A stretch of 64,000 nt of DNA from Malaciobacter marinus (GTDB taxonomy: Bacteria; Campylobacterota; Campylobacteria; Campylobacterales; Arcobacteraceae), in NCBI RefSeq assembly GCF_003544855.1, contig NZ_CP032101.1, positions 2,728,001 to 2,792,000 of the forward strand, in the 5' to 3' direction. The stretch's first letter is position 1, and each line of letters opens with the position of its first letter. A model generated the notes under the pieces. It had not been told where the DNA came from and did not search any database. It worked only from the letters and a program-made list of their open reading frames with translations. Below, one piece after another: positions 8,347 to 23,253 of this stretch. Both the position numbers and the translations under genes were made by a program.

Positions 8347-9204
8347 ATGAGAATTAATACAAACACTGCTTCACTTATGGCACAAGAAGCAAATAGCAAT
8401 ACAAATAAAGCATTAACTAACTCTTTAGAGAAGCTAAGTACAGGGCTTAGAATCAATAAAGCAAGTGATGATGCATCAGGACTTGCAATTGCTGATAAAT
8501 TAAGAACACAAGCTAGTTCACTAGGACAATCAATTTCAAATGGAAACTCAGCAATTTCTTTAACACAAATTGCAGATAAAGCCATGGCTGAGCAATCAAA
8601 TATTTTAGATATTATTAAAACTAAACTTATTCAAGCATCAACTGATACTACGTCTCAAGAAGGTAGAAAATCTATTGGTAAAGATATTGATAAATTATTA
8701 GTTCAATTAGATAATATTTCAAAACAAACAAACTATAATGGTACATCACTATTACAAGGTGCTTCTGGTGGTGCGGCTGCAGTTCAATTAACTTTTCAAA
8801 TGGGTGAGAATGTAAATGATACAATCTCTACAACAGCTGGAGTTAGAGCAAATGTGTCTGGTTTAACATTAGATGCTTTAAAATCAGCAGCTGCTTCTGG
8901 TACATCAGCTGTGTTTGATGCAGGTGATTCAAGAGGTTTCTTGGATGATATAGATAGTGCACTAAATACACTAAATGGATGGAGAGCAGATTTTGGTTCT
9001 ACTCAAAACCAATTAGAATCAGCAGTAAGAAACCAAATGACTCAACAAACAAATATTAAAGCTGCAGAATCTGTAATTAGAGATGTTGATTATGCACAAG
9101 AAAGTGCAACATTTAATAAACAAAATATCATTGCACAAGCTGGTACTTATGCTATGAGTCAAGCTAATAATGTTCAACAAAATGTTCTAAGATTGTTGCA
9201 ATAA
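8347..9204 (+). CDS. fla: Flagellin 1 of 6 (most divergent copy, without the structured leader)
   Basis: Filament subunit of the flagellum. The conserved D0/D1 N-terminus (MRINTNTASLMAQEA..., LSTGLRINKASDDASGLAIA) and C-terminus (NQMTQQTNIKAAESVIRDVDYAQES, NNVQQNVLRLLQ) are intact. The centre is short, so the protein of 285 residues lacks the outer D2/D3 domains. It differs from the other five copies along its whole length, for example NSNTNKALTNSLEKL and SQEGRKSIGKDIDKLL. It is the only copy whose upstream region (54 bases after trmA) lacks the shared leader RNA; its ribosome site is AAAGGG. A strong intrinsic terminator follows. Transcription probably starts inside trmA or reads through from it. 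I see no sigma-54 or sigma-28 consensus. Confidence 0.96.
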   Translation: MRINTNTASLMAQEANSNTNKALTNSLEKLSTGLRINKASDDASGLAIADKLRTQASSLGQSISNGNSAISLTQIADKAMAEQSNILDIIKTKLIQASTDTTSQEGRKSIGKDIDKLLVQLDNISKQTNYNGTSLLQGASGGAAAVQLTFQMGENVNDTISTTAGVRANVSGLTLDALKSAAASGTSAVFDAGDSRGFLDDIDSALNTLNGWRADFGSTQNQLESAVRNQMTQQTNIKAAESVIRDVDYAQESATFNKQNIIAQAGTYAMSQANNVQQNVLRLLQ

Positions 9205-9261
9205 TTTTTTATTTTTATTTTTTCAACACCCTGTTAGTACTCTAAAACTACCATTTTATAG

Positions 9262-9288
9262 GCTCGGAAACTACTCCGGGCTTTTTTT
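9262..9288 (+). terminator. Intrinsic terminator after flagellin 1
   Basis: The 6-bp stem GCTCGG/CCGGGC with one G-T pair and loop AAACTACT is followed directly by seven T. It is the clearest rho-independent terminator in the array and separates flagellin 1 from the rest. Confidence 0.85.
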
Positions 9289-9310
9289 ATAACTTCTTTC
9301 ATATTAAGCT

Positions 9311-9336
9311 AATTTTAAGAATTGGTGTGTCATAAT
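9311..9336 (+). promoter_or_regulatory. Flagellin-array promoter, copy 1 (drives the 66-residue gene and flagellin 2)
   Basis: The element GAATTGGTGTGTCATAAT recurs exactly upstream of flagellins 3 and 4. It ends in an extended -10 (TGT-CATAAT, 9328-9336). No sigma-54 (GG-N10-GC) or clear sigma-28 element is present. Here the element is followed by the small gene at 9368 and only then by the leader and flagellin 2. Confidence 0.6.
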
Positions 9337-9367
9337 ACTTTTATAACTTGAAAAGGAGAATTTAAAA

Positions 9368-9568
9368 ATGCAATCAACAAATTCAATACCAGAAAACATT
9401 TTAAAGATCCAAAAGAAGTTATGTACTTTTGATAAAGGTTCAAGAAACTATAAAAAGTATAGCAAGATATTACAAAAGCATATTAAAAAAAATAATATGA
9501 AAAAAAGAGTTAATAGTAATATCAAAACAATAGAGGCTATTGCAAAAATTAGTAGTCAAAAAAATTAA
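9368..9568 (+). CDS. Small basic protein of 66 residues embedded in the flagellin array
   Basis: I do not recognise this protein. It reads MQSTNSIPENILKIQKKLCT... and is rich in Lys and Arg, with no membrane segment or signal peptide; the body is predicted helical. Support for a real gene comes from a strong ribosome site (AAAAGGAG, 8 bases before the ATG), a flagellin-type promoter 32 bases upstream of the start, and an uninterrupted frame. It ends 7 bases before the flagellin 2 leader, so both should be on one transcript. Its position between a flagellin promoter and a flagellin leader suggests expression together with flagellin, perhaps as a regulator or export-related factor, but that is inference. 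It has no counterpart in the other intergenic regions of the array. Confidence 0.65.
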   Translation: MQSTNSIPENILKIQKKLCTFDKGSRNYKKYSKILQKHIKKNNMKKRVNSNIKTIEAIAKISSQKN

Positions 9569-9575
9569 TAAAATG

Positions 9576-9684
9576 TATAGGTATCAATGGATGCCAAAGA
9601 GTTAGACTCTATGCTTGGTAAAACAAGAAGTTCTATAGGCACCCAAATACTGGGGTAAATCTTTTTATCATATAAAGGATTTAT
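9576..9684 (+). ncRNA. Structured flagellin leader RNA, copy 1 (type A)
   Basis: Proposed fold: closing stem TATAG 9576-9580 with CTATA 9633-9637. It encloses hairpin 1 (GGTATC 9580-9585 / GATGCC 9590-9595, loop AATG), hairpin 2 (AGAGT 9598-9602 / ACTCT 9606-9610) and hairpin 3 (CTTG 9614-9617 / CAAG 9624-9627). Base G9580 is claimed by both the closing stem and hairpin 1, so one of them is shorter. Hairpin 4 is CCCA 9642-9645 / TGGG 9651-9654. A 9-bp hairpin, AAATCTTTT 9657-9665 with AAAGGATTT 9674-9682, covers the Shine-Dalgarno AAAGGA of flagellin 2. ANGGA motifs, the type bound by CsrA, occur at 9587-9591 and 9675-9679. The same element precedes five flagellin genes. Confidence 0.65.
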
Positions 9685-9685
9685 T

Positions 9686-10534
9686 ATGAGAATAAATACA
9701 AATGCAGCTTCACTTGTAGCACAAGAAGCAGCAACAAACACAAATAAAAATTTAAGTTCTTCATTAGAAAAATTAAGTACTGGTCTTAGAATCAATAAAG
9801 CAAGTGATGATGCTTCTGGTTTAGCAATTGCTGATAAACTAAGAACACAAGCAAGCTCAATTGGTCAATCAATCTCAAATGGTAATTCAGCAGTTTCTTT
9901 AACACAAATCGCTGATAAAGCTATGGCTGAGCAATCAAATATTTTAGATATCATCAAAACAAAACTTGTTCAAGCTGCAACTGATACAACATCAGATGAT
10001 GGTAGAACAGCAATTGGAAAAGATGTTACTAAATTATTAGATCAGTTAGATAATATTGCTAAACAAACTAATTATAATGGTACAACACTATTACAAGGTG
10101 CAACATCTGCTTCAGCAGCAGCACAATTAACATTCCAAATGGGTGAAAAAGCTGCTGATACTATTGCTACAACAGCTGGTGTTAGAGCAAATGTATCAGG
10201 TTTAGTTTTATCTGATGTTAAATCTTCTGCTGGTGCTGGATTTAGTTCTGCATTAGGAGCTAGAAACTTATTGGATGATATTGATACAGCTATTAACACG
10301 CTAAATGGATGGAGAGCAGACTTCGGTTCTACTCAAAATCAATTAGAATCAGCTATTAGAAACCAAATGACTCAGCAAACAAATATTAAAGCTGCTGAAT
10401 CAGTAATTAGAGATGTGGATTATGCACAAGAAAGTTCTAACTTTAACAAACAAAATATTATTGCACAAGCTGGTACTTATGCTATGAGTCAAGCTAATGC
10501 AATTCAACAAAACGTTACTAGATTATTACAATAA
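9686..10534 (+). CDS. fla: Flagellin 2 of 6
   Basis: Short flagellin of 282 residues with intact D0/D1 ends and a reduced centre. The N-terminal half is nearly identical to flagellins 3 and 4 (MRINTNAASLVAQEAATNTN). The centre (GATSASAAAQLTF, VLSDVKSSAGAGFSSALGARN) is its own type. The centre is rich in Ser and Thr, the kind of residue that carries nonulosonic acid in related bacteria, and the Maf transferase is encoded at the end of the array. Translation starts behind AAAGGA, which lies inside the leader's last hairpin. It is cotranscribed with the small gene upstream. Confidence 0.97.
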   Translation: MRINTNAASLVAQEAATNTNKNLSSSLEKLSTGLRINKASDDASGLAIADKLRTQASSIGQSISNGNSAVSLTQIADKAMAEQSNILDIIKTKLVQAATDTTSDDGRTAIGKDVTKLLDQLDNIAKQTNYNGTTLLQGATSASAAAQLTFQMGEKAADTIATTAGVRANVSGLVLSDVKSSAGAGFSSALGARNLLDDIDTAINTLNGWRADFGSTQNQLESAIRNQMTQQTNIKAAESVIRDVDYAQESSNFNKQNIIAQAGTYAMSQANAIQQNVTRLLQ

Positions 10535-10598
10535 TCGGTGAAGTTGCAAAGCAACGAGTGATGTTTCTGTGAAAACGTTACTAGATTATTACAATAAT
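10509..10598 (+). repeat. Duplicated flagellin 3' end flanking a 36-base insert (after flagellin 2)
   Basis: The last 26 coding bases of flagellin 2 plus one more (10509-10535) recur without change at 10572-10598. Between the copies lies a short segment containing GTTGCAAAGCAAC, which can form a 5-bp hairpin. The same arrangement follows flagellin 3 but not flagellin 4, 5 or 6. It looks like a scar of duplication or of a small element's insertion. Confidence 0.8.
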
Positions 10599-10610
10599 TA
10601 GTAGCATTAT

Positions 10611-10633
10611 AATCAAGAGGTATACTCTTGGTT
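10611..10633 (+). terminator. Hairpin after flagellin 2, probable terminator
   Basis: The 9-bp stem AATCAAGAG/CTCTTGGTT has a GTATA loop and lies between flagellin 2 and the flagellin 3 promoter. The following bases (ATTTAG) are only moderately T-rich, so termination may be weak. Confidence 0.5.
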
Positions 10634-10650
10634 ATTTAGAATAAACATCT

Positions 10651-10698
10651 ATTCTTAAAATCGATTTAAACTAATTTTAAGAATTGGTGTGTCATAAT
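10651..10698 (+). promoter_or_regulatory. Inverted repeat and promoter of flagellin 3
   Basis: A perfect 11-bp inverted repeat, ATTCTTAAAAT 10651-10661 and ATTTTAAGAAT 10674-10684, has a 12-base spacer. It abuts the shared element ending in the extended -10 TGTCATAAT (10690-10698). The right arm lies just downstream of the expected -35 position. The predicted start of transcription falls a few bases before the leader at 10709, so the leader would be the entire 5' untranslated region. Confidence 0.6.
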
Positions 10699-10708
10699 TT
10701 TATAAATG

Positions 10709-10817
10709 TATAGGTATCAATGGATGCCAAAGAGTTAGACTCTATGCTTGGTAAAACAAGAAGTTCTATAGGCACCCAAATACTGGGGTAAATCTTTTTA
10801 TCATATAAAGGATTTAT
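10709..10817 (+). ncRNA. Structured flagellin leader RNA, copy 2 (type A)
   Basis: Identical to copy 1 throughout, shifted by 1133 bases. It therefore has the same closing stem, three enclosed hairpins, fourth hairpin and 9-bp hairpin over the Shine-Dalgarno. The identity extends into the coding start, so copies 1 and 2 are a recent duplication and give no covariation between themselves. Confidence 0.65.
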
Positions 10818-10818
10818 T

Positions 10819-11682
10819 ATGAGAATAAATACAAATGCAGCTTCACTTGTAGCACAAGAAGCAGCAACAAACACAAATAAAAATTTAAGTTCTTCATTAG
10901 AAAAATTAAGTACTGGTTTAAGAATCAATAAAGCAAGTGATGATGCGTCAGGACTTGCAATTGCTGATAAACTAAGAACTCAAGCAAGTTCAATTGGTCA
11001 ATCAATTTCAAATGGTAATTCAGCAGTTTCTTTAACACAAATCGCTGATAAAGCTATGGCTGAGCAATCTAATATTTTAGATATTGTGAAAACAAAGCTA
11101 GTTCAAGCTGCAACTGATACAACTTCGCAAGAAGGTAGAGCAGCAATTGGTAAAGATGTAAAAAAATTACTAGACCAATTAGATAATATTGCTAGTCAAA
11201 CTAACTACAATGGAACAACACTTTTACAAGCATCTGGTGCTGGTACAGGTTCAGCAACAGCACTTACATTCCAAATGGGTGAAAAAGCAGCTGATACAAT
11301 TGTAACAACAGCTGGTGTTCAAGCAAATGCTATTGGACTTGGAGTTAGTGGATTAAGATCTGCAGCTGGGGCTGGTACATCTGCTGGTGGATTTGATGCA
11401 GCTGGGGCTAGAGGTTTTATGACAACAGTTGATAGTGCTATTAACACGCTAAATGGATGGAGAGCAGACTTCGGTTCTACTCAAAACCAATTAGAATCAG
11501 CTATTAGAAACCAAATGACTCAGCAAACAAATATCAAAGCTGCTGAATCAGTTATTAGAGATGTTGATTATGCACAAGAAAGTGCTAACTTTAACAAACA
11601 AAATATTATTGCACAAGCTGGTACTTATGCTATGAGTCAAGCTAATGCAATTCAACAAAACGTTACTAGATTATTACAATAA
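10819..11682 (+). CDS. fla: Flagellin 3 of 6
   Basis: Flagellin of 287 residues. The N-terminus is the flagellin 2/4 type, but the centre is a distinct five-residue-longer version (LLQASGAGTGSATALTF, GVQANAIGLGVSGLRSAAGA, GGFDAAGARGFMTTVDSA). That centre is shared almost exactly with flagellin 6. The C-terminus is again common to copies 2-4 (ANAIQQNVTRLLQ). It starts behind the leader-embedded AAAGGA. Its own promoter-like element suggests it can be transcribed independently of flagellin 2. Confidence 0.97.
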   Translation: MRINTNAASLVAQEAATNTNKNLSSSLEKLSTGLRINKASDDASGLAIADKLRTQASSIGQSISNGNSAVSLTQIADKAMAEQSNILDIVKTKLVQAATDTTSQEGRAAIGKDVKKLLDQLDNIASQTNYNGTTLLQASGAGTGSATALTFQMGEKAADTIVTTAGVQANAIGLGVSGLRSAAGAGTSAGGFDAAGARGFMTTVDSAINTLNGWRADFGSTQNQLESAIRNQMTQQTNIKAAESVIRDVDYAQESANFNKQNIIAQAGTYAMSQANAIQQNVTRLLQ

Positions 11683-11745
11683 TCGGTGAAGTTGCAAAGC
11701 AACGAGTGATGTTTCTGTGAAAACGTTACTAGATTATTACAATAA
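11657..11745 (+). repeat. Duplicated flagellin 3' end flanking a 36-base insert (after flagellin 3)
   Basis: Second instance of the arrangement seen after flagellin 2. The gene's last 26 bases (11657-11682) recur at 11720-11745 around the same GTTGCAAAGCAAC-containing segment. The flagellin 2-3 and 3-4 intergenic regions are near copies of each other. Confidence 0.8.
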
Positions 11746-11758
11746 CTAGTAGCATTAT

Positions 11759-11781
11759 AATCAAGAGGTATACTCTTGATT
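11759..11781 (+). terminator. Hairpin after flagellin 3, probable terminator
   Basis: Stem AATCAAGAG/CTCTTGATT, 9 bp, loop GTATA. It is the copy of the hairpin after flagellin 2, with the one G-T pair replaced by a perfect T-A pair. The following T content is modest. Confidence 0.5.
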
Positions 11782-11798
11782 ATTTAGAATAAACATCT

Positions 11799-11846
11799 AT
11801 TCTTAATATTAATTTAAACTAATATTAAGAATTGGTGTGTCATAAT
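11799..11846 (+). promoter_or_regulatory. Inverted repeat and promoter of flagellin 4
   Basis: Perfect 11-bp inverted repeat ATTCTTAATAT 11799-11809 and ATATTAAGAAT 11822-11832. Compared with the flagellin 3 copy one base pair has changed in both arms, so the symmetry is preserved. It is followed by TTGGTGTGTCATAAT with the extended -10 at 11838-11846. Confidence 0.6.
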
Positions 11847-11861
11847 ATTTATGAACTTATG

Positions 11862-11970
11862 TATAGGTATCAATGGATACCGAAGAGTTAGACTCTATGC
11901 TTGGTAAAACAAGAATTGTTTATAGGCTCCCGTGTCATGGGTAAATCTTTTTATCATATAAAGGATTTAT
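11862..11970 (+). ncRNA. Structured flagellin leader RNA, copy 3 (type B)
   Basis: Same fold as copies 1 and 2 with changes that mostly keep pairing. Hairpin 1 becomes GGTATC/GATACC (a G-T pair becomes A-T). The closing stem becomes TATAG/TTATA (G-C becomes G-T). Hairpin 4 becomes CCCGT/ATGGG with a different loop. Hairpins 2 and 3 and the Shine-Dalgarno hairpin are unchanged. Confidence 0.65.
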
Positions 11971-11971
11971 T

Positions 11972-12820
11972 ATGAGAATAAATACAAATGCAGCTTCACT
12001 TGTAGCACAAGAAGCAGCAACAAACACAAATAAAAATTTAAGTTCTTCATTAGAAAAATTAAGTACTGGTCTTAGAATCAATAAAGCAAGTGATGATGCT
12101 TCTGGTTTAGCAATTGCTGATAAACTAAGAACACAAGCAAGCTCAATTGGTCAATCAATCTCAAATGGTAATTCAGCAGTTTCTTTAACACAAATCGCTG
12201 ATAAAGCTATGGCTGAGCAATCTAATATTTTAGATATTATTAAAACAAAATTAGTTCAAGCTTCGACTGACACAACATCAGATGATGGTAGAAAAGCAAT
12301 TGGAAAAGATGTTAGTAAACTATTAGATCAATTAAATAATATTGCTAGCCAAACTAATTATAATGGTACAACACTATTACAAGGTGCTTCTGGAGGTGCA
12401 GCTGCTGATCAATTAACATTCCAAATGGGTGAAAAAGCTGCTGATACTATTCAAACTAATTCAGGTGTTAGAGCAAATGTATCAGGATTAACGCTAGATG
12501 GTCTTAAAGCTTCTTCTGATGCAGGATTTGCTTCTGCTGGAAGTGCAAGAAGTTTAATGGCAACAGTTGATACAGCTATAAACACGCTAAATGGATGGAG
12601 AGCAGACTTTGGTTCTACTCAAAACCAATTAGAATCAGCTATTAGAAACCAAATGACTCAGCAAACAAATATTAAATCTGCTGAATCAGTTATTAGAGAT
12701 GTTGATTATGCACAAGAAAGTGCTAACTTTAACAAACAAAATATTATTGCGCAAGCTGGTACTTATGCTATGAGTCAAGCTAATGCAATTCAACAAAACG
12801 TTACTAGATTATTACAATAA
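11972..12820 (+). CDS. fla: Flagellin 4 of 6
   Basis: Flagellin of 282 residues with the flagellin 2/3 N-terminus. The centre (LLQGASGGAAADQLTF, SGVRANVSGLTLDGLKASSDAGFASAGSARSLM) is close to flagellin 5. The C-terminus has IKSAESVIRDVDYAQESANF and ends ANAIQQNVTRLLQ. It lacks the duplicated 3' end found after copies 2 and 3. It starts behind AAAGGA within the leader hairpin. Confidence 0.97.
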   Translation: MRINTNAASLVAQEAATNTNKNLSSSLEKLSTGLRINKASDDASGLAIADKLRTQASSIGQSISNGNSAVSLTQIADKAMAEQSNILDIIKTKLVQASTDTTSDDGRKAIGKDVSKLLDQLNNIASQTNYNGTTLLQGASGGAAADQLTFQMGEKAADTIQTNSGVRANVSGLTLDGLKASSDAGFASAGSARSLMATVDTAINTLNGWRADFGSTQNQLESAIRNQMTQQTNIKSAESVIRDVDYAQESANFNKQNIIAQAGTYAMSQANAIQQNVTRLLQ

Positions 12821-12891
12821 ATACGAATGATATATTAAAGTAATATTTTGTTGTAGTTATTTTGTATTGATTAAACTTGGGATTAAAACAA

Positions 12892-12997
12892 TATAGGGGT
12901 CAATGGATTCCGAAGAGTTAGACTCTATGCTTGGTAAAACAAGAATGTTTTAGGCTCCCGTATCATGGGTAAATCTTTTATAATAAAAAGGATTTAT
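12892..12997 (+). ncRNA. Structured flagellin leader RNA, copy 4 (type C)
   Basis: Hairpin 1 is GGGGTC/GATTCC with the same AATG loop; two base pairs differ from type B and become G-T pairs. Hairpins 2 and 3 are identical to the other copies. Hairpin 4 is CCCGT/ATGGG with loop ATC. The closing stem has one mismatch (TATAG with TTTTA). The final hairpin AAATCTTTT/AAAGGATTT over the ribosome site is kept although its loop is a different sequence, ATAATAA. Confidence 0.62.
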
Positions 12998-12998
12998 T

Positions 12999-13847
12999 AT
13001 GAGAATTAATACAAATGCAGCTTCATTGATAGCTCAAGAAGCAGCTGCAAACACAACAAAAAATGTAAGTAGTTCGTTAGAAAAACTAAGTACTGGTTTA
13101 AGAATCAATAAAGCAAGTGATGATGCTTCTGGTTTAGCAATTGCTGATAAACTAAGAACTCAAGCAAGCTCAATTGGTCAATCAATTTCAAATGGTAACT
13201 CAGCAGTTTCTTTAACACAAATTGCTGATAAAGCTATGTCAGAGCAATCTAATATTTTAGATGTTCTTAAAACAAAGTTAGTTCAAGCTTCAACTGATAC
13301 AACATCAGATGAGGGTAGAAAAGCAATTGGAAAAGATGTTAGTAAATTACTAAATCAATTAAATAATATTGCTAGTCAAACTAATTACAATGGTACAACA
13401 GTATTGCAAGGAGCAACATCTGCTTCTGCTGCAGCACAATTAACATTCCAAATGGGTGAAAAAGCTGCTGATACTATTCAAACAACAGCTGGTGTTAGAG
13501 CAAACTTAAGTGGATTATCACTTGATGGACTTAAAGCTTCTGCTGATGCAGGATTTGCTTCTGCTGGAAGTGCTAGAAGTTTAATGGCAAGTGTTGATAC
13601 AGCTATTAACACACTAAATGGATGGAGAGCAGACTTCGGTTCTACTCAAAATCAATTAGAATCAGCTATTAGAAACCAAATGACTCAGCAAACAAATATT
13701 AAAGCTGCTGAATCAGTAATTAGAGATGTGGATTATGCACAAGAAAGTTCTAACTTTAACAAACAAAATATTATTGCGCAAGCAGGTACTTATGCGATGA
13801 GTCAAGCTAATGCTTCTCAACAAAATGTACTTAGATTACTTCAGTAG
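12999..13847 (+). CDS. fla: Flagellin 5 of 6
   Basis: Flagellin of 282 residues with a second N-terminal type shared only with flagellin 6 (MRINTNAASLIAQEAAANTT, KAMSEQSNILD). Its end (ANASQQNVLRLLQ) is also shared only with copy 6. The centre (VLQGATSASAAAQLTF, RANLSGLSLDGLKASADAGFASAGSARSLMASV) is closest to flagellin 4. The 71 bases between the end of flagellin 4 and the leader hold no copy of the GAATTGGTGTG promoter element, so its start of transcription is unclear. Confidence 0.97.
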   Translation: MRINTNAASLIAQEAAANTTKNVSSSLEKLSTGLRINKASDDASGLAIADKLRTQASSIGQSISNGNSAVSLTQIADKAMSEQSNILDVLKTKLVQASTDTTSDEGRKAIGKDVSKLLNQLNNIASQTNYNGTTVLQGATSASAAAQLTFQMGEKAADTIQTTAGVRANLSGLSLDGLKASADAGFASAGSARSLMASVDTAINTLNGWRADFGSTQNQLESAIRNQMTQQTNIKAAESVIRDVDYAQESSNFNKQNIIAQAGTYAMSQANASQQNVLRLLQ

Positions 13848-13896
13848 TCTATAATATTTAGTACTGATAAAAGTTACATTAGATAATTAATAGATT

Positions 13897-13930
13897 TTTA
13901 AAGGGCTAGATTTTTCTAGTTCCCTTTAAA
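13897..13930 (+). terminator. Long hairpin after flagellin 5, probable terminator
   Basis: TTTAAAGGG 13897-13905 pairs with CCCTTTAAA 13922-13930, with a nested CTAGA/TCTAG stem inside. The same hairpin follows flagellin 6. No T-run follows, so it could also be an mRNA-stabilising 3' stem. Confidence 0.55.
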
Positions 13931-14003
13931 GCATTTATTCTTAATAATACACTATTTTTAATTTTAATATTAGGAATATATGTATGGTGTATTTTGTTGT
14001 AAG

Positions 14004-14014
14004 TGGGTCATATA
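14004..14014 (+). promoter_or_regulatory. Probable promoter of flagellin 6
   Basis: TGGGTCATATA resembles the shared GTGTGTCATAAT element and places the transcription start at about 14020, the first base of the leader's closing stem. An imperfect version of the upstream inverted repeat (ATTCTTAATA 13937-13946, TATTAGGAAT 13968-13977) lies before it. Confidence 0.4.
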
Positions 14015-14019
14015 AACAA

Positions 14020-14125
14020 TATAGGGGTCAATGGATTCCGAAGAGTTAGACTCTATGCTTGGTAAAACAAGAATGTTTTAGGCTCCCGTATCATGGGTAA
14101 ATCTTTTATAATAAAAAGGATTTAT
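14020..14125 (+). ncRNA. Structured flagellin leader RNA, copy 5 (type C)
   Basis: Identical to copy 4. The match continues from ACAATATAGG through the ribosome site and far into the coding region, so copies 4 and 5 are a recent duplication. Confidence 0.62.
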
Positions 14126-14126
14126 T

Positions 14127-14990
14127 ATGAGAATTAATACAAATGCAGCTTCATTGATAGCTCAAGAAGCAGCTGCAAACACAACAAAAAATGTAAGTAG
14201 TTCGTTAGAAAAACTAAGTACTGGTTTAAGAATCAATAAAGCAAGTGATGATGCTTCTGGTTTAGCAATTGCTGATAAACTAAGAACACAAGCAAGTTCA
14301 ATTGGTCAATCAATTTCAAATGGTAACTCAGCAGTTTCTTTAACACAAATTGCTGATAAAGCTATGTCAGAGCAATCTAATATTTTAGATATTGTGAAAA
14401 CAAAGCTAGTTCAAGCTGCAACTGATACAACTTCACAAGAAGGTAGAGCAGCAATTGGTAAAGATGTAAAAAAATTACTAGATCAGTTAGATAATATTGC
14501 TAAGCAAACTAACTACAATGGTACAACACTATTGCAAGCATCTGCTGCTGGTACAGGTTCAGCAACATCACTTACATTTCAAATGGGTGAGAAGTTAGCT
14601 GATACTATTAAAACAACAGCTGGTGTTCAAGCAAATGCTATTGGACTTGGAGTTAGTGGATTAAGATCTGCAGCTGGTGCTGGTACATCTGCTGGTGGAT
14701 TTGATGCAGCTGGGGCTAGAGGTTTTATGACAACAGTTGATAGTGCTATTAACACGCTAAATGGATGGAGAGCAGACTTCGGTTCTACTCAAAATCAATT
14801 AGAATCAGCTATTAGAAACCAAATGACTCAGCAAACAAATATTAAATCTGCTGAATCAGTTATTAGAGATGTTGACTATGCTGCTGAAAGTTCTAATTTT
14901 AATAAACAGAACATAATTGCACAAGCTGGTACTTATGCTATGAGTCAAGCTAATGCTTCTCAACAAAATGTACTTAGATTACTTCAGTAG
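14127..14990 (+). CDS. fla: Flagellin 6 of 6 (mosaic of flagellins 5 and 3)
   Basis: Flagellin of 287 residues. Leader and residues 1 to about 88 match flagellin 5 (SLIAQEAAANTT, KAMSEQSNILD). From there to about residue 205 it follows flagellin 3, with IVKTKLVQAATDTTSQEGRA, the AAGTGSAT insertion, GVQANAIGLGVSGLRSAA and GGFDAAGARGFMTTVDSA. The end returns to flagellin 5 (ANASQQNVLRLLQ), with a flagellin 4-like IKSAES between. It also has its own DVDYAAESSNF in place of DVDYAQES. This pattern is what gene conversion inside the array would produce. The downstream hairpin matches that of flagellin 5. Confidence 0.97.
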   Translation: MRINTNAASLIAQEAAANTTKNVSSSLEKLSTGLRINKASDDASGLAIADKLRTQASSIGQSISNGNSAVSLTQIADKAMSEQSNILDIVKTKLVQAATDTTSQEGRAAIGKDVKKLLDQLDNIAKQTNYNGTTLLQASAAGTGSATSLTFQMGEKLADTIKTTAGVQANAIGLGVSGLRSAAGAGTSAGGFDAAGARGFMTTVDSAINTLNGWRADFGSTQNQLESAIRNQMTQQTNIKSAESVIRDVDYAAESSNFNKQNIIAQAGTYAMSQANASQQNVLRLLQ

Positions 14991-15125: not shown

Positions 15126-17102
15126 ATGCAAGAAGAACTAGATAATTTAACTCAAACACTTTTTAATTTATATTTAAAGAATATGGAATTTTTAGAAAAA
15201 AAACATCCTAATACTTATAAAAAAGTACAAAAACTATCAAAAGATATTGAAGAACAAAATCATAAAGAAAGATATACTTTAGAGTATATAAAAGAAGGTG
15301 GTTATTTTGATATTTTTGACCACACAAAAGATAAATTTCTTTATGATTTTAATAGCTATGAAGAAGCAGATAAAAGAGCTGAGTTAACTAATTTTACAAA
15401 AGATAACTCTTTAGATTTATTAAGAATTGATCCACGAAATAAAAAACTAGCCATTATGCACTCTTTAGGAATTGTAGCAACATTGGCTAATTATATAAAT
15501 CATAAAGTTGATTTTACAAATGTTACTTTCTCAAAAATATATAAATTTATCTTTATTGGTGTTGGTGCTGGAGTTCACTTAAATGAAGTTTATAAAAAAG
15601 TAAACTCTATGAATACTTTGATAATTGAGCCTGAACTTGAACTTTTTAGACTTACTTTATTTACTACTGATTATACAGTTTTTGAACAAGGAAATAAAAA
15701 GTTATTTCTATCAATTTGTGAAACACCAATACAAAGAGAAAAAACCATTGAAGAGTTCACCCATCATCACAACTATATGAACTATAACATCAAGCACCAT
15801 CTTTTTTGGATAGATTATAAATATATTTTAGATGAACTTATTAGTTATTACTCAACTAACCATCCTGCATCTTTTCCTTTTGGAGTAGTTTTAAAAGTTC
15901 TTTATAGAACTATTAGATTTATGAAAGATAAAGAGAAGTTCATAAAAAAGCAATTAATAAAAGATACATTGCCCTTAAAAAATAAAAAAGTACTAATAAT
16001 AAGTGCTGGTCCATCTGTTGATAATCATTTAGAATGGATAAAAAAATATCAAGATAGATTTGTAATTGTTTGTGTTGATGTGATCTTAAAAAAATTAGAA
16101 AAAAATAGTATTGTACCTGATATAGTAGTCTCTATTGACCCCTCACCTGAATGTGGAAAATTTCTTAAAACAGAGGATAAGAACTTCTTAAAAAATAGTG
16201 CTATTATCTTCCTTTCTCAACAAGAAGAGAGTGTATTAAAAAAAGTAGAGCATTTAAATTATTATTTTTCACAAGTATATCCTGTATGTGAAGAGTTAGG
16301 ATACTCTTTTTCTCTTCCAAATGTTGGTACTTTCTCATTTGCCATGTCTGTATTTTTAAAAGCAAATGAACTATATTTAGTTGGAAATGATGCAGCATTT
16401 AATCAAGAAACAGGAGATAGATATGCAAGTGATAGCTCACATGAAATATCTGATCTTATAGAAGAAAAACATATAATTGATGATAATATAGTTTCTGATT
16501 ATGATATTTTAGAAGTAAAAGGAAATTTAAGAGAAAAAATAAAATCAAATAGAACTCTTTTGACTTTTAAAAGAGACTATGAGTTATTTATCCATAGTTT
16601 AGATGAAGAAACAAAAAAAACTTTAAAAGCTTATAATCTATCAGATGGTGCATTTATGGAAGGTCTTATACCTTTAGATATAAAAGATATTGACCTACAA
16701 ACCCTAGAAAAAAAAGATTTTAATGTAAAAGAGATTTTAGATAATATAAGTTGTACTGTAGAAAATATTGATTTTGAAGATGATGCAAAAGTATTAAGTG
16801 GAATAATAACTAAAGTTAATAAATTTAAAAAAACAAAAATCTCTTCAAGAGATGATTTCTTACAAAAAAAACTAGATATTATGATTTGGATTTTACAGCA
16901 AAAAAAACATATGAGTAACGCTATGTTTGCAAATGTATTTTTAAAATATATTGAGTTAGTAGATATTTATGTAAACTTCTTTTTAAACTTAAAACAAAAC
17001 CAACTATATACTCAAAAGAATTTATCTGAAGTTAAAAGATACTGGTGTGATTCTACTATTTTAGTATTAAAAGATCTAAAAGTAATAATAAATCAAGAAT
17101 AG
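15126..17102 (+). CDS. maf: Maf-family motility accessory factor, probable flagellin nonulosonate transferase (DUF115)
   Basis: Maf proteins are the enzymes believed to transfer pseudaminic or legionaminic acid from the CMP-sugar to Ser/Thr of flagellin in the cytoplasm before export. The 658-residue length is typical. The central Rossmann-like DUF115/MptE-type domain starts near residue 290 with KKVLIISAGPSVDNHLEW. It continues through FVIVCVDVILKKL, IVPDIVVSIDPS and NVGTFSFAMSVFLKANELYLVGNDAAF. An N-terminal domain (KFIFIGVGAGVHLNEVYKKV, TLIIEPELELFRL) precedes it and the C-terminal part is helical. It lies 135 bases after the last flagellin and converges on the nonulosonate cluster, which supports this role. 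Which sugar it uses cannot be told from sequence. Confidence 0.9.
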   Translation: MQEELDNLTQTLFNLYLKNMEFLEKKHPNTYKKVQKLSKDIEEQNHKERYTLEYIKEGGYFDIFDHTKDKFLYDFNSYEEADKRAELTNFTKDNSLDLLRIDPRNKKLAIMHSLGIVATLANYINHKVDFTNVTFSKIYKFIFIGVGAGVHLNEVYKKVNSMNTLIIEPELELFRLTLFTTDYTVFEQGNKKLFLSICETPIQREKTIEEFTHHHNYMNYNIKHHLFWIDYKYILDELISYYSTNHPASFPFGVVLKVLYRTIRFMKDKEKFIKKQLIKDTLPLKNKKVLIISAGPSVDNHLEWIKKYQDRFVIVCVDVILKKLEKNSIVPDIVVSIDPSPECGKFLKTEDKNFLKNSAIIFLSQQEESVLKKVEHLNYYFSQVYPVCEELGYSFSLPNVGTFSFAMSVFLKANELYLVGNDAAFNQETGDRYASDSSHEISDLIEEKHIIDDNIVSDYDILEVKGNLREKIKSNRTLLTFKRDYELFIHSLDEETKKTLKAYNLSDGAFMEGLIPLDIKDIDLQTLEKKDFNVKEILDNISCTVENIDFEDDAKVLSGIITKVNKFKKTKISSRDDFLQKKLDIMIWILQQKKHMSNAMFANVFLKYIELVDIYVNFFLNLKQNQLYTQKNLSEVKRYWCDSTILVLKDLKVIINQE

Positions 17103-17639: not shown

Positions 17640-18561
17640 ATGTATTCCTTAATATGGTTTCTAATTGTGCTTTTGTTTCTAAAATATCAACATTTTCAAT
17701 TACATCAATTCTTTCTTTTGCATCAATTTGCAAACTATATGTTTGTTTATTTAACAATAAAGATTCCTTAAATACAGAAGAGTCTATACCAAATACTATT
17801 TTACTATTGTATAAAACTTCATGTATATCAAATCCACCTTTATATATTTTAACAAAAGAGTATTTTTTTAATATTTTATCAAACTTTTTCATATCTTCTG
17901 CAGGATGAAATTTAATAAAAAGTATAATATCTAAGTCTACACTAGATATTGCATCTAAAAGATTAATTATACTATCATACTCTGTAAAGCCAAACTTATC
18001 TCCATATAGTTCATATATATATTCTGATAAAAAAAGTGCGTATTTACCTCTATTTTCAAGTATTAAATTATTTGATGTTTTTAATTTTTTAGCATAAAAG
18101 ACCTCTTTTATATATTTTAAATACAAATTTTCATGAAATTGTATTCTTTGCTTAATATCTTCATTGATTAATTCTACTTTATTATCATAATAAATAATAT
18201 CAGGTAAATACTTTCTATCTATAAATTTATTATTAATAGAAAATCTTATATTTAAGTTTAAAATTGAATCTAAAAAACATTTTACTTTTAATCCTAGTTT
18301 TTTTGCCTCTATTAATTTTTCTATTTCATAATCAGAGTGAATACCAGATGTTCCAATAATAACAATATCATCTTTTTTAAAAATATTTTCATTTTCATCA
18401 ATCAAAAAAGAAATATGTCTTTTAAATATTTTTAAAGCAGGACCTTTAGGATAACACTTTACAATGTAACCTTTTTCATGCATATAATATGCATAAGCCA
18501 TGGTCAAATTAGCTCCTCCTGCATCATAGGAAAAGACTTTTATTTCACTATTTGAGTTCAT
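17629..18561 (-). CDS. Unknown protein with a glycosyltransferase-B-like outline
   Basis: I do not recognise this 310-residue protein. It begins EIKVFSYDAGGANLTMAYAY, which looks like the glycine-rich loop at the start of a GT-B or UDP-GlcNAc 2-epimerase-type fold. The second half has FIKFHPAEDMKKFDKIL and VFGIDSSVFKESLLLNK, the shape of a sugar-nucleotide site as in PseG- or CDP-glycerol transferase-like proteins. There is no membrane segment. It overlaps the aminotransferase before it and the GNAT after it, so it belongs to the sugar operon. Nucleotide-sugar hydrolase and glycosyltransferase are the two roles I would test first. Confidence 0.6.
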   Translation of the reverse strand: MNSNSEIKVFSYDAGGANLTMAYAYYMHEKGYIVKCYPKGPALKIFKRHISFLIDENENIFKKDDIVIIGTSGIHSDYEIEKLIEAKKLGLKVKCFLDSILNLNIRFSINNKFIDRKYLPDIIYYDNKVELINEDIKQRIQFHENLYLKYIKEVFYAKKLKTSNNLILENRGKYALFLSEYIYELYGDKFGFTEYDSIINLLDAISSVDLDIILFIKFHPAEDMKKFDKILKKYSFVKIYKGGFDIHEVLYNSKIVFGIDSSVFKESLLLNKQTYSLQIDAKERIDVIENVDILETKAQLETILRNTYEK

Positions 18562-19834
18562 CTAAATTTTCACAAACTTTTACATAAGCATTAATTACAT
18601 CTTTTACATCTTCTTTGCTTAAAGGACTTCTAGTAAAATCATGTGTCCACAAAGTTTTATAATGAAATTTTTCTACATTTGGACAAATTCCTTTTTCATA
18701 TGAAATTTCATCTTTAAAAGCAAAGTTTTGTTTATTATATGCAATTTTATTTTGAAACATAGGAAGTAAATAGATAGGTTTTACATAACCTTGTCCTATT
18801 GGTACACCTTCATTTTCTCTATCTTGCACTGGTTCTAGTTCTGCTTTTACAGCCATAATAAATTTATCTCTTGAAACTTTTGCAATATCTTCTAAAAACT
18901 CAAATGCTTGCACATAATAAGAGTGTGTTCTATTTTCTAATTTTGTTGTCTTTATAAAAGGATATTTTCCTAAAGCCTCATCATACATTTTTGCATACTT
19001 TTGTCTTACTTCTAACTCACTTTGTAGTTTTTTTAACTGCTCTATTCCAATGGCTGCTTGAATTTCAGTCAATCTAAAATTAAAGCCTAGCATATTTGAA
19101 AGTTGTGTTTCACCTTTATTTTCTACAACTGATTCTGCATGATTTCTAATTAGTTGCATTTTATTAGCTAAATCATCACTATTTGTAACACAAACTCCAC
19201 CCTCACCTGTATGAATATGTTTATGATAATTTAGACTAAAAACTCCAATATCACCAAGAGTTCCAACATACTTTTCATCATATTTTGCTCCTGGAGCTTG
19301 TGCACAATCTTCAATTACATATAAATTATGCTCTTTTGCAACTTCTAGTATCTCTTTCATATTAGAAGGACAACCAAAAATATGTACAACAACTATTGCC
19401 TTAGTATTTTTTGTAATAGCTTTTTTTAAGGATTTAATACAAAAAGAGTAAGTATTAGCTTCTAAATCACAAAATACAGGAGTTGCATTCCAAAATAAAG
19501 GAGCACTTGCGGAAATTGACATTGAGTATGGTGAAACAATGACCTCATCACCAAGACCAATTCCACAAGCACCTAAGGCTGTTATTAAGCCAGAAGTATT
19601 TGAATTTACAGAGATACTATGTTTAATATTAAAATATTCACTCCAAGCTTTTTCAAACTCTTGAACTTTTTCTCCCCCATAAAAATCTTCATGCCAAGCA
19701 CCTAAGTATTTTGATAAAATACCTTTTTTCATAACTTTTACAACTTCATCAATTTCATTTTCATTTATATTATTATATCTAGGAAACAACTTTGTTCTTA
19801 TTTTAGTTCCACCATTAATAGCTAATTTTGGCAT
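18548..19834 (-). CDS. DegT/DnrJ/EryC1/StrS-family sugar aminotransferase (second of the cluster)
   Basis: PLP-dependent transaminase of nucleotide-linked keto sugars, 428 residues, so longer than PseC. Family features are AINGGTKIRTKLFPRYNNIN at the start, SVNSNTSGLITALGACGIGLGDEVIVSPYS, the Asp pair in YVIEDCAQAPGA, and the PLP Lys in FSLNYHKHIHTGEGGVC. It differs from PseC at 27134-28267 over its whole length, so the cluster carries two transaminases for different substrates. It overlaps the genes on both sides by about 13 bases. The start MPKLAINGG is the usual one for this subfamily. Confidence 0.9.
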   Translation of the reverse strand: MPKLAINGGTKIRTKLFPRYNNINENEIDEVVKVMKKGILSKYLGAWHEDFYGGEKVQEFEKAWSEYFNIKHSISVNSNTSGLITALGACGIGLGDEVIVSPYSMSISASAPLFWNATPVFCDLEANTYSFCIKSLKKAITKNTKAIVVVHIFGCPSNMKEILEVAKEHNLYVIEDCAQAPGAKYDEKYVGTLGDIGVFSLNYHKHIHTGEGGVCVTNSDDLANKMQLIRNHAESVVENKGETQLSNMLGFNFRLTEIQAAIGIEQLKKLQSELEVRQKYAKMYDEALGKYPFIKTTKLENRTHSYYVQAFEFLEDIAKVSRDKFIMAVKAELEPVQDRENEGVPIGQGYVKPIYLLPMFQNKIAYNKQNFAFKDEISYEKGICPNVEKFHYKTLWTHDFTRSPLSKEDVKDVINAYVKVCENLDELK

Positions 19835-20811
19835 CTATTTTCCTTACTATTTAGAATATTTGTTATAAATTCTAAGTTTTTTAGTTCTTTTTTAAAAGAA
19901 GCGCAGTTTTGTCTATTTTGTTTTATTTGTAAAAATATTTCATCATAAACATTATAGATTAGTTTTTCTGAGATTTTTTCTTTTTTGTAAGCTTCTTTAT
20001 CTATAAACTTATATCCTTTATACTCTATGCTATCTACAATTTTTTTATAATAAATTGTTTGTTCACTATTTATATAATTTACAACTTGATTATCAAAATA
20101 AAGAGTTAATTCAATAATATTGTATTTTGTATGATCTAAAGCAATAAAATATACAGGAATAATCTTCTCATCATATTTAATCTTAAAAAAGACATCATAG
20201 GATTTATCTTCATCATTAAAACCAATTGTTTCATCAAGTATTTTTATATCTAATAGTTTTGGATTAGAGAATAAATAGTTAATCAAATCAATAAAATGTG
20301 AACCATTATTTTTTAAACCTTTCACATAATTTAAATTGATTTTTTGTAAATTTTCTAAACTTCTATTTTCAATACTATCTTTTAATCTTTTTATTGGCTC
20401 TTGGAATCTTCTAGTATAATTTACAACTATTTTATCTTTGAAAAAATCATCTAAAATCTCATACTCTTTTTTATTTGAAAAAAGAGGCTTTTCCATCAAA
20501 AACTTTTTTATACTTTTATGATTTTTAAAACTATTTAATATTTTAAAGTGAGTATTAGTAGGTGTAGCAACAACTAAAATATCAATATCTTTCTTATCAA
20601 TTAATTTTTCATAATCATTATAAAAAATAACATCATTGTAAAACTCTTTTACTTTTGATAAATTTTTTTCATCTATATCTACTACATATTTTAATTCAAA
20701 CTCTTTATGTAAATATATAGCTTTTATATGTGAATATGCAGTTTTAGAGTTTTTATCATAATCAAAAAGTAAAGAGATATTACCAAGTCCAATCACTGCA
20801 ACATTCAACAT
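19822..20811 (-). CDS. Gfo/Idh/MocA-family oxidoreductase
   Basis: NAD(P)-dependent sugar dehydrogenase of 329 residues. The N-terminal Rossmann fold begins LNVAVIGLGNISLLF. VVATPTNTHFKIL and the EKP motif in KFLMEKPLFSNKKEY are typical, and YTRRFQEPIKRLKD is followed by a divergent C-terminal domain containing GSHFIDLINYLF. It forms a tight group with the cytidylyltransferase before it (shared base 20811) and the DegT aminotransferase after it. In related flagellar glycosylation loci such an oxidoreductase-aminotransferase pair introduces an amino group; here the substrate is unknown. Confidence 0.88.
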   Translation of the reverse strand: MLNVAVIGLGNISLLFDYDKNSKTAYSHIKAIYLHKEFELKYVVDIDEKNLSKVKEFYNDVIFYNDYEKLIDKKDIDILVVATPTNTHFKILNSFKNHKSIKKFLMEKPLFSNKKEYEILDDFFKDKIVVNYTRRFQEPIKRLKDSIENRSLENLQKINLNYVKGLKNNGSHFIDLINYLFSNPKLLDIKILDETIGFNDEDKSYDVFFKIKYDEKIIPVYFIALDHTKYNIIELTLYFDNQVVNYINSEQTIYYKKIVDSIEYKGYKFIDKEAYKKEKISEKLIYNVYDEIFLQIKQNRQNCASFKKELKNLEFITNILNSKENRCQN

Positions 20812-21536
20812 TAACTTAGTCCTTTTCTTTTTATACTACTATTTATTTGTAATAACTTAGGGTTCTTTCTTACATAAGATATCATCTCTTCAATAGTAAA
20901 ATAATCATTTTTAAAATGATTCATTATCTTAGTTATTATTTCATAATCTTCTTTTGTATCTAAAGTTACAGATAACTCGGGGAAATATAAATTTTTTGGT
21001 GCTTCAATATTATAAGTTTTAAATCGCTTTGTAGTATAAAACTCAGGAGTTACATGCTCTATATCCATAGAAGTTAACTCTTTTTTTGATACTTCTTGCA
21101 ATGCTTTTAAAGAGTAAACTTGAATAGACATCCCAACAGGAAATGTACTTTTTATGCTATTACTTACATAATCATAGTCATTGTTTAAATAAAACTCAAT
21201 AGCCTCATCAATAAGTCTTGGTTCAATAAAAGGGCAATCTCCTGTTAACTCAACAATTATATCTGTTTCAAATTTTTCATGGGCTTGTAAAACTCTTTGG
21301 AAAACATTATTTTCACTTCCTCTAAAATATTCAACATTTTTCTTTTCACAAAGATTTATTATTCCATCATCTTCTTTATTAATTGTAGTTGCAACAATTA
21401 TTTTATTTACAAGTTTACATTTTAAAACTCTATTTATCATTACTTCTAACACTGTACTATTTCCAAGAGGTTTTAAAACTTTTTTTGGTAATCTTGAAGA
21501 TGTCATTCTAGCTTCAATAGATACATTAATATTCAT
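20811..21536 (-). CDS. SpsF-type cytidylyltransferase, copy 3 of the cluster
   Basis: Nucleotidyltransferase of 241 residues in the SpsF/acylneuraminate cytidylyltransferase group. It begins with the CTP-binding signature SIEARMTSSRLPKKVLKPLG, continues through IIVATTINKEDDGI and VELTGDCPFIEPRLIDEAI, and has the VTLDTKEDYEII motif near the end. It would be expected to join CMP to a nonulosonic acid. Its neighbours are a methylase and the Gfo/Idh-DegT pair rather than the core pse genes, so its sugar may differ from that of the copy next to pseC and pseG. Confidence 0.87.
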   Translation of the reverse strand: MNINVSIEARMTSSRLPKKVLKPLGNSTVLEVMINRVLKCKLVNKIIVATTINKEDDGIINLCEKKNVEYFRGSENNVFQRVLQAHEKFETDIIVELTGDCPFIEPRLIDEAIEFYLNNDYDYVSNSIKSTFPVGMSIQVYSLKALQEVSKKELTSMDIEHVTPEFYTTKRFKTYNIEAPKNLYFPELSVTLDTKEDYEIITKIMNHFKNDYFTIEEMISYVRKNPKLLQINSSIKRKGLS

Positions 21537-21545
21537 AATAGCCCT

Positions 21546-22184
21546 TTATTTTTGTAATAAAAACATTTGATCAATTAAATTTTTATCATCAGTATATGAA
21601 ACTTTTAATTCATCTAATTTTACTAAATCTTTTTTTCTTTCTTTATAAAGTTTCATAAAATCTGCTTTCCACATCAAATTTTTATTACCTTGGTACATCA
21701 AATCAGTATATTCCTTTGCATAATACTCAAATCCCCAAATATAAGAGTTTGTTACTCTATATATCTCATCAATTGCAAAATTTATATTATCAGGAGAGAT
21801 ATGAATCAAAACTCCACTTGTAAAAACTAAATCAAAATAAGCATCTTTAAAAGGTATATCTAATGCATCACCTTTTATTATATTTAAATTATCTGCTCTT
21901 TTTTTTGCAAAATTTATAGCTCTTTCTTGAATCTCTATTCCATAAAGATTTTTAAATCCCATACTTTGTAGATGCAATAATTGATTACCAATATTTGTAC
22001 CTACTTCTAAGATTTTCGCATCTTTATTTATATTTTTTAAAAATCTATTATTTAAATCTGTTCTTGAAAGTGTATATCTATTTTCATAAAACTCATCTAA
22101 GTGTTTTGGAGTATAAATATTTCTTTGAAGATACTCTTTACCAAACTCATCTTCCCAAGTTTGTCTTTGAAAGTTTTTTTCCAT
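21546..22184 (-). CDS. Pseudaminic acid biosynthesis-associated methylase (first of two)
   Basis: SAM-dependent methyltransferase of 212 residues of the small family found inside pseudaminic acid loci. It starts RQTWEDEFGKEYLQRN, then has the SAM motif ILEVGTNIGNQLLHLQSMG, GIEIQERAINFAKKR, FDLVFTSGVLIHISP and WGFEYYAKEYTDLMYQGN. The related gene at 28359-28979 shares this plan. It may O- or N-methylate the sugar or an intermediate. It stands between pseI and a cytidylyltransferase. Confidence 0.82.
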   Translation of the reverse strand: MEKNFQRQTWEDEFGKEYLQRNIYTPKHLDEFYENRYTLSRTDLNNRFLKNINKDAKILEVGTNIGNQLLHLQSMGFKNLYGIEIQERAINFAKKRADNLNIIKGDALDIPFKDAYFDLVFTSGVLIHISPDNINFAIDEIYRVTNSYIWGFEYYAKEYTDLMYQGNKNLMWKADFMKLYKERKKDLVKLDELKVSYTDDKNLIDQMFLLQK

Positions 22185-22221
22185 AAAGTATTCCTAATAA
22201 TTAAATCTATATTTTAAAAGC

Positions 22222-23253
22222 TTATAAATCTAGCTTAACTCTATCTGCAAACTTATAATCTTTTGTTGATTTTTGTCCAAGTAAATCTTTTAAATACTTA
22301 GGATGCAAACCAAAACCAGGTCTTACGCTTTTAATATTCTCTAGGGTAAATTCATCACCTTTTTTTATATCTTTTGAAACATATAAACTTCTTGAAAAAA
22401 CTCTATTTTTAATCTTTTTTTCTGTCATTTCATAACTTACTTTTCCAAGTAATTTTTCAGTATCTTTTATACACTTAACCATGTGTTTAAACTCTTCTTT
22501 ATCCATTGAAAACTCTAAATCAGGTCCACCAATACTTTTATCTAAAATAAAATGTTTCTCAATAACTTTTGCACCCAATGTTACAGCAACAACTGGTGCT
22601 GTTGAACCTATTGTATGATCAGAAAAACCAGAAATTACACCAAAAGTTTCTGCTAAGTTTGCAATTGTCTTCAAATTTGCATCTTCTAAAGCAGCAGGAT
22701 AAGCACTTGTACACTTTAATAAGATTATCTCTTCATTTCCTACACTTCTACAAATATCAACAACATCTTGTATCTCTTGCAATGTGGCAATACCTGTTGA
22801 AATTATTATTGGTTTTTTTTGTTTTGCAGTATATTCTATTAATGCATAATCTGTTATTTCAAAAGAAGCTATTTTGTATGCACTTGGATTAAACTGTTTT
22901 AAAAAATCTACTGCACTTTTATCAAAGGGAGTTGAAAAAATATCAAGATCTAAACTTCTTGCATACTCAAATAGTTCTTTATGCCATTCCCATGGAGTAT
23001 ATGCCTCTTCATAAAGTTCATACAAAGTTTTATTATCCCATAAAGTACCACCTTTAATCACAAAATCCTCTCTATTTGAATTTAATGTTAAAGTATCAGC
23101 TGTATATGTTTGAAGTTTAATTGCATTTGCCCCAACCTCTTTTGCTGCTTTTATAGTATCAAGTGCATTTTGTAAACTACCATTATGATTTGCACTTAAT
23201 TCAGCAATAATAAATGTTCCATCTTCTTTTAAATTAAAGTTTCCAATTTTCAT
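22222..23253 (-). CDS. pseI: Pseudaminic acid synthase
   Basis: NeuB-family enzyme that condenses the 6-deoxy-AltdiNAc hexose with phosphoenolpyruvate to give pseudaminic acid. The sequence follows the C. jejuni PseI pattern closely: IGNFN at the start, FIIAELSANHNGSLQNAL, AIKLQTYTADTLTLNS, DFVIKGGTLWD.KTLYELYEEAYTPWEWH, FSTPFD, AYKIASFEITD and GAKVIEKHFILDKS. The C-terminal antifreeze-like (SAF) domain includes KNRVFSRSLYVSKDIKKGDEFT and SVRPGFGLHPKYL. At 343 residues it is full length. Confidence in PseI over the legionaminic or sialic synthases is high because of these PseI-specific stretches. Confidence 0.95.
   Translation of the reverse strand: MKIGNFNLKEDGTFIIAELSANHNGSLQNALDTIKAAKEVGANAIKLQTYTADTLTLNSNREDFVIKGGTLWDNKTLYELYEEAYTPWEWHKELFEYARSLDLDIFSTPFDKSAVDFLKQFNPSAYKIASFEITDYALIEYTAKQKKPIIISTGIATLQEIQDVVDICRSVGNEEIILLKCTSAYPAALEDANLKTIANLAETFGVISGFSDHTIGSTAPVVAVTLGAKVIEKHFILDKSIGGPDLEFSMDKEEFKHMVKCIKDTEKLLGKVSYEMTEKKIKNRVFSRSLYVSKDIKKGDEFTLENIKSVRPGFGLHPKYLKDLLGQKSTKDYKFADRVKLDL

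Follow-up and report, generated by a model that had tools for sequence, protein, structure and literature searches.

Our analysis indicated that the 5′ leader carried by five tandem flagellin genes of Malaciobacter marinus is, almost beyond doubt, a selected and structured RNA of flagellin mRNAs that is specific to the family Arcobacteraceae. The array of six flagellin genes spans nucleotides 8347-14990 of the window, by which we mean the whole 64,000-nt stretch analyzed (contig NZ_CP032101.1, positions 2,728,001 to 2,792,000, forward strand). An earlier note on this DNA had claimed that flagellins 2 to 6 (F2 to F6) share a leader of 107 to 110 nt, and a BLAST search of the leader against the complete genome (2.92 Mb) returned exactly these five copies, each running to the flagellin ATG, while flagellin 1 (F1; 8347-9204) is without it. 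The copies fall into the three sequence types described in that note, F2=F3 (type A), F4 (type B), and F5=F6 (type C), with hairpin 1 as GGTATC/GATGCC, GGTATC/GATACC, and GGGGTC/GATTCC, respectively, and the loop AATG in each. Folded singly, the three types were more stable than dinucleotide shuffles (z of -3.4, -2.8, and -2.1). The leader has no terminator-like U-run, and the 3′ limit of the element is the ribosome site. The window alone could not show covariation because its five copies hold only three types; the case for selected structure, which the earlier note had made from paired changes in these copies, was borne out by the family as a whole, in which 99.2% of the helix cells are paired and 96 double-sided changes are found, with significant pairs under a tree-aware null.

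The family sample comprised 104 genomes from 20 genera of Arcobacteraceae, 92 of which carry a flagellin. A covariance model built from the three window leader types, as the earlier note had suggested, found matches in 67/104 genomes, and a core-only model built from 63 sequences found the core in 76/104 genomes and 15/20 genera (E ≤ 0.001), with up to 11 copies per genome. The gene 3′ of the leader was a flagellin at every strong match examined, and 85 distinct leaders were collected upstream of flagellin starts. Leader-bearing and leaderless flagellins coexist in one genome (e.g., F1 and the MKINTN copies are leaderless), as gene-specific control would predict. Among 399 genomes drawn from the order Campylobacterales, strong matches were restricted to the family and no genuine copy was found outside it. 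The top outside match (G435; E, 7.5e-4) falls within protein-coding sequence, several others are within coding sequence, and none of those inspected has a flagellin behind it; two matches in viral contigs, in apparent coding sequence and likewise without flagellin, were also rejected, and weak matches of the first model inside the family with no flagellin behind them were taken as chance. A pattern search of named genomes returned Arcobacter and Aliarcobacter records, two metagenome-assembled genomes (MAGs), and one match, in a Neglecta MAG, that was attributed to chance. In a reduced genome without flagellin (G098, locus L144), a decayed relic of the leader persists, accompanied by a flagellin remnant and by a broken copy of the small gene described below.

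The conserved unit across the family reads UA-P1-RA-P2-AUG-P3-AANGU, in which P1, P2, and P3 are three successive hairpins (coordinates in Table 1). In 63 distinct divergent cores, standard pairs occupied 99.2% of the helix cells, double-sided changes were present at 10 of the 14 pairs, and the 96 double-changed cells compared with 15.3 in shuffles; the covariation score was 0.40, against 0.16 in shuffled alignments and ≤0.09 with the partner slid. Under the tree-aware null, in which substitutions were redistributed on a FastTree tree (300 simulations), six pairs over the three helices remained at E ≤ 0.017, with E-values down to 0. Some pairs of the 3′ element also scored under this null, but they were left out of the covariation count because they sit in neighboring columns of a region that is not reliably alignable across clades. 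The variants encountered include GGGATC/GATTCC, GGGAGC/GCTTCC, GGGACC/GGTTCC, GGTATT/AATACC, and GGGTTT/AAATCC, among others, for P1; AGAG/CTCT, AGGG/CCCT, GAAG/CTTC, and AAGG/CCTT for P2; and CTTG/CAAG, CTCA/TGAG, CTTA/TAAG, and CTAG/CTAG for P3.

The most conserved part of the leader consists of its unpaired bases rather than its helices. Identical in 85/85 sequences are the UA 5′ of P1, the A at position 2 of the P1 loop, the A at position 2 of the P1-P2 linker, the AUG between P2 and P3, and the AA 3′ of P3. These invariant junction bases exceed the needs of hairpin formation. The rule RAUK for the P1 loop is not absolute because two later genomes (L147, L148) have the loop AAGA, and the fourth loop base is divided between G (44) and T (41), so that GGA is not conserved. 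The invariant AUG was rejected as the start of an upstream open reading frame or leader peptide: the frame is broken by P3 loop lengths of 6-10, 14-19, 21, and 64, and the resulting peptides are unrelated. In the leaders of one genome (G051, locus L060), the P3 loop contains a 64-nt insert that itself looks structured.

The fold proposed earlier had placed a closing stem around the three hairpins, followed by a fourth hairpin and a 9-bp hairpin hiding the Shine-Dalgarno (SD) sequence. Hairpins 1 to 3 hold family-wide, but the closing stem (TATAG/CTATA) was rejected, as it fits F2 and F3 only and the pairing between 5′ and 3′ flanks within a leader is no better than between genomes (8.28 vs 8.32). 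The fourth hairpin (P4), usually present 3′ of the core, differs in sequence from clade to clade: members of the window's genus have CCC/GGG, and others have GTGA/TCAC or GTAAA/TTTAC. A strong SD-hiding hairpin is predicted for the window's genus, G036, and G091, with SD accessibility mostly 0.00-0.05 (0.38 for one window leader type), but it is not part of the conserved core, and the SD is predicted to be accessible in most other genera (many at 0.8-1.0). In the genera with an open SD, TCAT(AAT) mostly lies about 20-28 nt 5′ of the start codon and complements ATTATGA, which has the start codon inside it; TCAT is retained in 74/85 leaders. The corresponding UCAUAAU/AUUAUGA pairing appears in several minimum free energy folds, but its helix does not exceed the length reached in shuffled sequence, so that anti-start pairing in such genera is a possibility only.

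The promoter AAGAA(A/T)TGG..TG.CATAAT was found upstream in 57/85 leaders, mostly ending 11-14 nt before the core, and from this distance the core would start within about 5-8 nt of the 5′ end of the transcript. A small gene with the promoter 5′ of it precedes the F2 leader, which begins about 8-14 nt past its stop codon, an order shared by all six genomes sampled from the window's genus. The F5/F6-type leaders are without the usual flagellin promoter (12832-12891 and 13960-14019 in the window, and also L007, L012, and L013) and instead share another upstream box, TTGTATT ... GGGATT ... RAACA, situated about 8 nt 5′ of the leader. This arrangement points to a second promoter class for these copies.

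Two features lie beyond what the earlier note had reported, namely, the near-invariant junction bases and a family of small basic proteins that shares the phylogenetic distribution of the leader. The member encoded by the small gene 5′ of the F2 leader has 66 residues with 17 K/R and 3 D/E (isoelectric point, 10.4); its homologues have a mean column identity of 72%, with invariant K13, K17, K23, S25, R26, N27, K30, K33, K37, H38, K40, R47, and K53. No significant match was found in Pfam, NCBIfam, PHROGs, or PDB sequences. An AlphaFold model has three helices (residues 9-20, 26-42, and 45-65; mean predicted local distance difference test score, 88.5), and structural matches to it, uS15 chains among them (Z, 4.0-4.6), were rejected as too weak for use. 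The protein occurs in 81/104 family genomes (E < 1e-7); none was found in the searched genomes of the order outside the family, where matches had E > 1e-3 and were short or broken. It is present in 73/76 leader-bearing but only 8/28 leaderless genomes (Fisher p, 3e-12) and, among genomes with a flagellin, in 72/75 against 7/17 (p, 6e-7), both values ignoring phylogeny. The contingency table was counted by hand, and flagellin repeats break assemblies, which bears on these counts. The three leader-bearing genomes without the protein are 74-87% complete, and flagellated leaderless genomes are often without it (G035, G043, G044, G047, G073, G075, and G100-G103). In 12 genomes the small gene directly precedes a leader-bearing flagellin; in the three others that were opened, it is a neighbor of recA. 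A new RNA-binding protein family is possible.

We favor, with a probability of roughly 0.6, the reading that the leader is a cis-acting element through which a trans-acting factor controls the translation or stability of flagellin mRNA. The three-hairpin domain with its near-invariant junctions would fold soon after transcription starts and would be bound by the factor, most likely a protein; binding would then alter the translation or decay of the flagellin mRNA via the following hairpin(s) and the ribosome-site sequence. In the window's lineage, the SD would be held within a hairpin, and in most other genera UCAU(AAU) could pair with the start-codon region. Such control would take the place of CsrA-FliW regulation of flagellin mRNA and of the sigma-28 late-gene switch, both missing from these bacteria. 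The conserved structure, the restriction to flagellins and to the family, the lack of CsrA and FliA, and the co-distribution of the small protein were observed here, from which we infer that a factor binds, which factor it is, in which direction it regulates, and that the SD or start-codon hairpin is used. The best candidate for the factor would be the family-specific basic 66-residue protein, although its role as the trans factor of the leader is a tentative assignment. It is also conceivable, though doubtful as a whole, that leader and protein form a dedicated RNA-protein flagellin checkpoint of Arcobacteraceae that stands in for both of these systems and couples flagellin synthesis to flagellar assembly.

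Several observations weigh against this reading or parts of it. For the protein, structural matches from Foldseek and VIA were weak and none was convincing, the small gene is often tens of kilobases from the leaders, beside recA, the co-distribution statistic takes no account of phylogeny, and one genome (G074) has the protein and a flagellin that, where examined, is without the leader. For the output step, the SD hairpin is confined to some genera and shuffled sequence yields anti-start helices as long as UCAUAAU/AUUAUGA, and the output step is uncertain for these two reasons.

A possible precedent is control by CsrA, which in Campylobacter jejuni represses the flaA mRNA by binding two ANGGA hairpins in a 45-nt leader, the second of which lies over the ribosome site (PMC4894983). 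Gene and position are alike, and the window contains AUGGA in the P1 loop region and AAGGA in the SD hairpin. However, CsrA (PF02599 cut-off) was found in 0/104 family genomes while three control genomes passed, only about half of the leaders retain the GGA at the P1 loop, and FliW, found in 66/104 family genomes, is missing from many leader-bearing ones (e.g., G026, G030, G032-G034, G046, G050, and G051). FliA was not found in the window's genome either, the sole match being below the cut-off and in a 623-aa frame taken as RpoD. With CsrA absent from the 104 genomes and FliA from the window's genome, the CsrA-flaA mechanism of Campylobacter cannot apply, and a leader that binds CsrA is extremely improbable. 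CsrA and FliW were also rejected as partners of the leader, since the former is absent from the family and the distribution of the latter does not follow the leader. The window's genome (G000) has two FliW paralogues (loci L090 and L091), although CsrA, with which FliW usually acts, is absent from it. The C. jejuni leader, from a related group, is likewise a structured flagellin 5′ leader with a hairpin that overlaps the ribosome site and with reported compensatory changes; unlike it, the present leader has three hairpins, other invariant bases, and a length of about 107 nt or more. It may work like the CsrA-flaA system without being a member of it.

Near-invariant junction bases around covarying helices are also what a metabolite or second-messenger riboswitch would present, with the core as its aptamer and the ribosome-site hairpins as its expression platform, and the leader position and the SD hairpin of one clade fit such a device. 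Riboswitches for common ligands, however, are usually spread more widely and control several gene types, whereas this leader is limited to one family and one gene type with up to 11 copies per genome and has no Rfam match, so that we regard a riboswitch as unlikely. Alternatively, the core could passively stabilize an abundant mRNA against 5′-end-dependent decay, as the ompA leader does, with no regulator involved. Its usual position close behind the -10 box, hence near the 5′ end, and the required abundance of flagellin mRNA agree with this, but in all six genomes sampled from the window's genus the F2 leader would be internal to its transcript, between two genes, an arrangement that argues against a purely 5′-terminal barrier, and a plain barrier would have no need of invariant unpaired junction bases; this, too, is a rather improbable explanation. 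If a trans-acting small RNA (sRNA) paired with the leader to control flagellin translation, the conserved unpaired AUG and RAUK loop bases would be accounted for, and sRNAs are reported to regulate Campylobacter flagella (PMC11187230). The conservation sits at junctions and helices rather than in one long unpaired stretch, and we consider an sRNA target distinctly improbable. The repeated 10-mer GTGTCATAAT, located near the ribosome site, is similar to the -10 region of the upstream promoter and could in principle be a DNA element, a second promoter giving a short-leader transcript to which the core would be incidental. This is very improbable: the core shows the covariation of RNA helices; the C of TCATAAT differs among upstream promoters (C 23, A 25, G 5, T 1), against the retention of TCAT in the leaders; and the motif makes no -10 box in the window's genus.

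In agreement with the earlier statement that the leader belongs to no known riboswitch class, Rfam (4227 families) gave no match at gathering score for the window, nothing relevant for nucleotides 9200-14200 at E up to 10, and none for 12 homologue loci at E up to 1. The flg-Rhizobiales RNA (RF01736) is likewise a structured RNA candidate with a flagellar link by name, but it comes from a different bacterial class, and the leader does not match it in Rfam. A computational survey of structured intergenic RNAs in Arcobacter sp. L (PMC6429828) reports several unnamed genus-specific motifs; flagellin and flagella go unmentioned in its main text, and an unnamed supplementary motif may overlap the leader. 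The main texts of three further structured-RNA surveys contain no flagellar RNA of this group. Autoregulatory leaders of the ribosomal-protein type are alike in being family-limited structured leaders, possibly here too with a small basic RNA-binding protein, but differ in that the gene controlled here is a flagellin and that binding by the small protein is only presumed.

The flagellin assignments rest on PF00669 and PF00700, which were matched by both proteins tested, and a genome search for Flagellin_N found eight such genes in M. marinus. The final 27 nt of the flagellin gene are duplicated once after F2 and F3 (10509-10680 and 11657-11828), and the intergenic blocks behind these two genes are nearly identical (98% over 59 nt), features that we read from the sequence as a trace of recombination between copies. 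A Maf/MptE-like flagellin glycosyltransferase gene (15126-17102) lies immediately 3′ of the array; behind it (18548-23253) are sugar genes that, from their translations alone, were named aminotransferase- and NeuB-like.

Table 1. Window coordinates of the flagellin genes, their leaders, and associated elements
Feature	Coordinates	Strand	Remarks
P1 hairpin of F2 leader, GGTATC-AATG-GATGCC	9580..9595	+	double-sided changes at 4/6 pairs across family
P2 hairpin of F2 leader, AGAG-TTAGA-CTCT	9598..9610	+	4/4 pairs covary, 100% paired
Unpaired AUG between P2 and P3, F2 leader	9611..9613	+	invariant, 85/85 sequences
P3 hairpin of F2 leader, CTTG-GTAAAA-CAAG	9614..9627	+	2/4 pairs covary, 100% paired
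SD-sequestering hairpin of F2 leader, AAATCTTTT/AAAGGATTT	9657..9682	+	predicted; lineage-specific
Leader of flagellin 2, type A	9576..9685	+	starts about 8 nt past stop codon of small gene
Leader of flagellin 3, type A	10709..10818	+	identical to F2 leader
Leader of flagellin 4, type B	11862..11971	+	
Leader of flagellin 5, type C	12892..12998	+	
Leader of flagellin 6, type C	14020..14126	+	identical to F5 leader
66-residue basic protein	9368..9568	+	candidate trans factor; in nearly all leader-bearing genomes
Flagellin-type promoter (AATTTTAAGAATTGGTGTGTCATAAT)	9308..9336	+	5′ of small gene and F2 leader
Promoter of the same type	10672..10698	+	5′ of F3 leader
Promoter of the same type	11820..11846	+	5′ of F4 leader
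Flagellin 2	9686..10534	+	PF00669 and PF00700
Flagellin 3	10819..11682	+	PF00669
Flagellin 4	11972..12820	+	PF00669
Flagellin 5	12999..13847	+	PF00669
Flagellin 6	14127..14990	+	PF00669

The polar flagella of Arcobacter are made in the absence of FliA and RpoN (PMC3445524) and, according to the present results, of CsrA. Because these three regulators are absent, the timing and scaling of flagellin, the most abundant flagellar product of Arcobacter, lack their usual explanation. A structured leader on the flagellin genes of nearly all flagellated genomes of the family, together with a similarly distributed small protein, would provide a concrete and testable answer.

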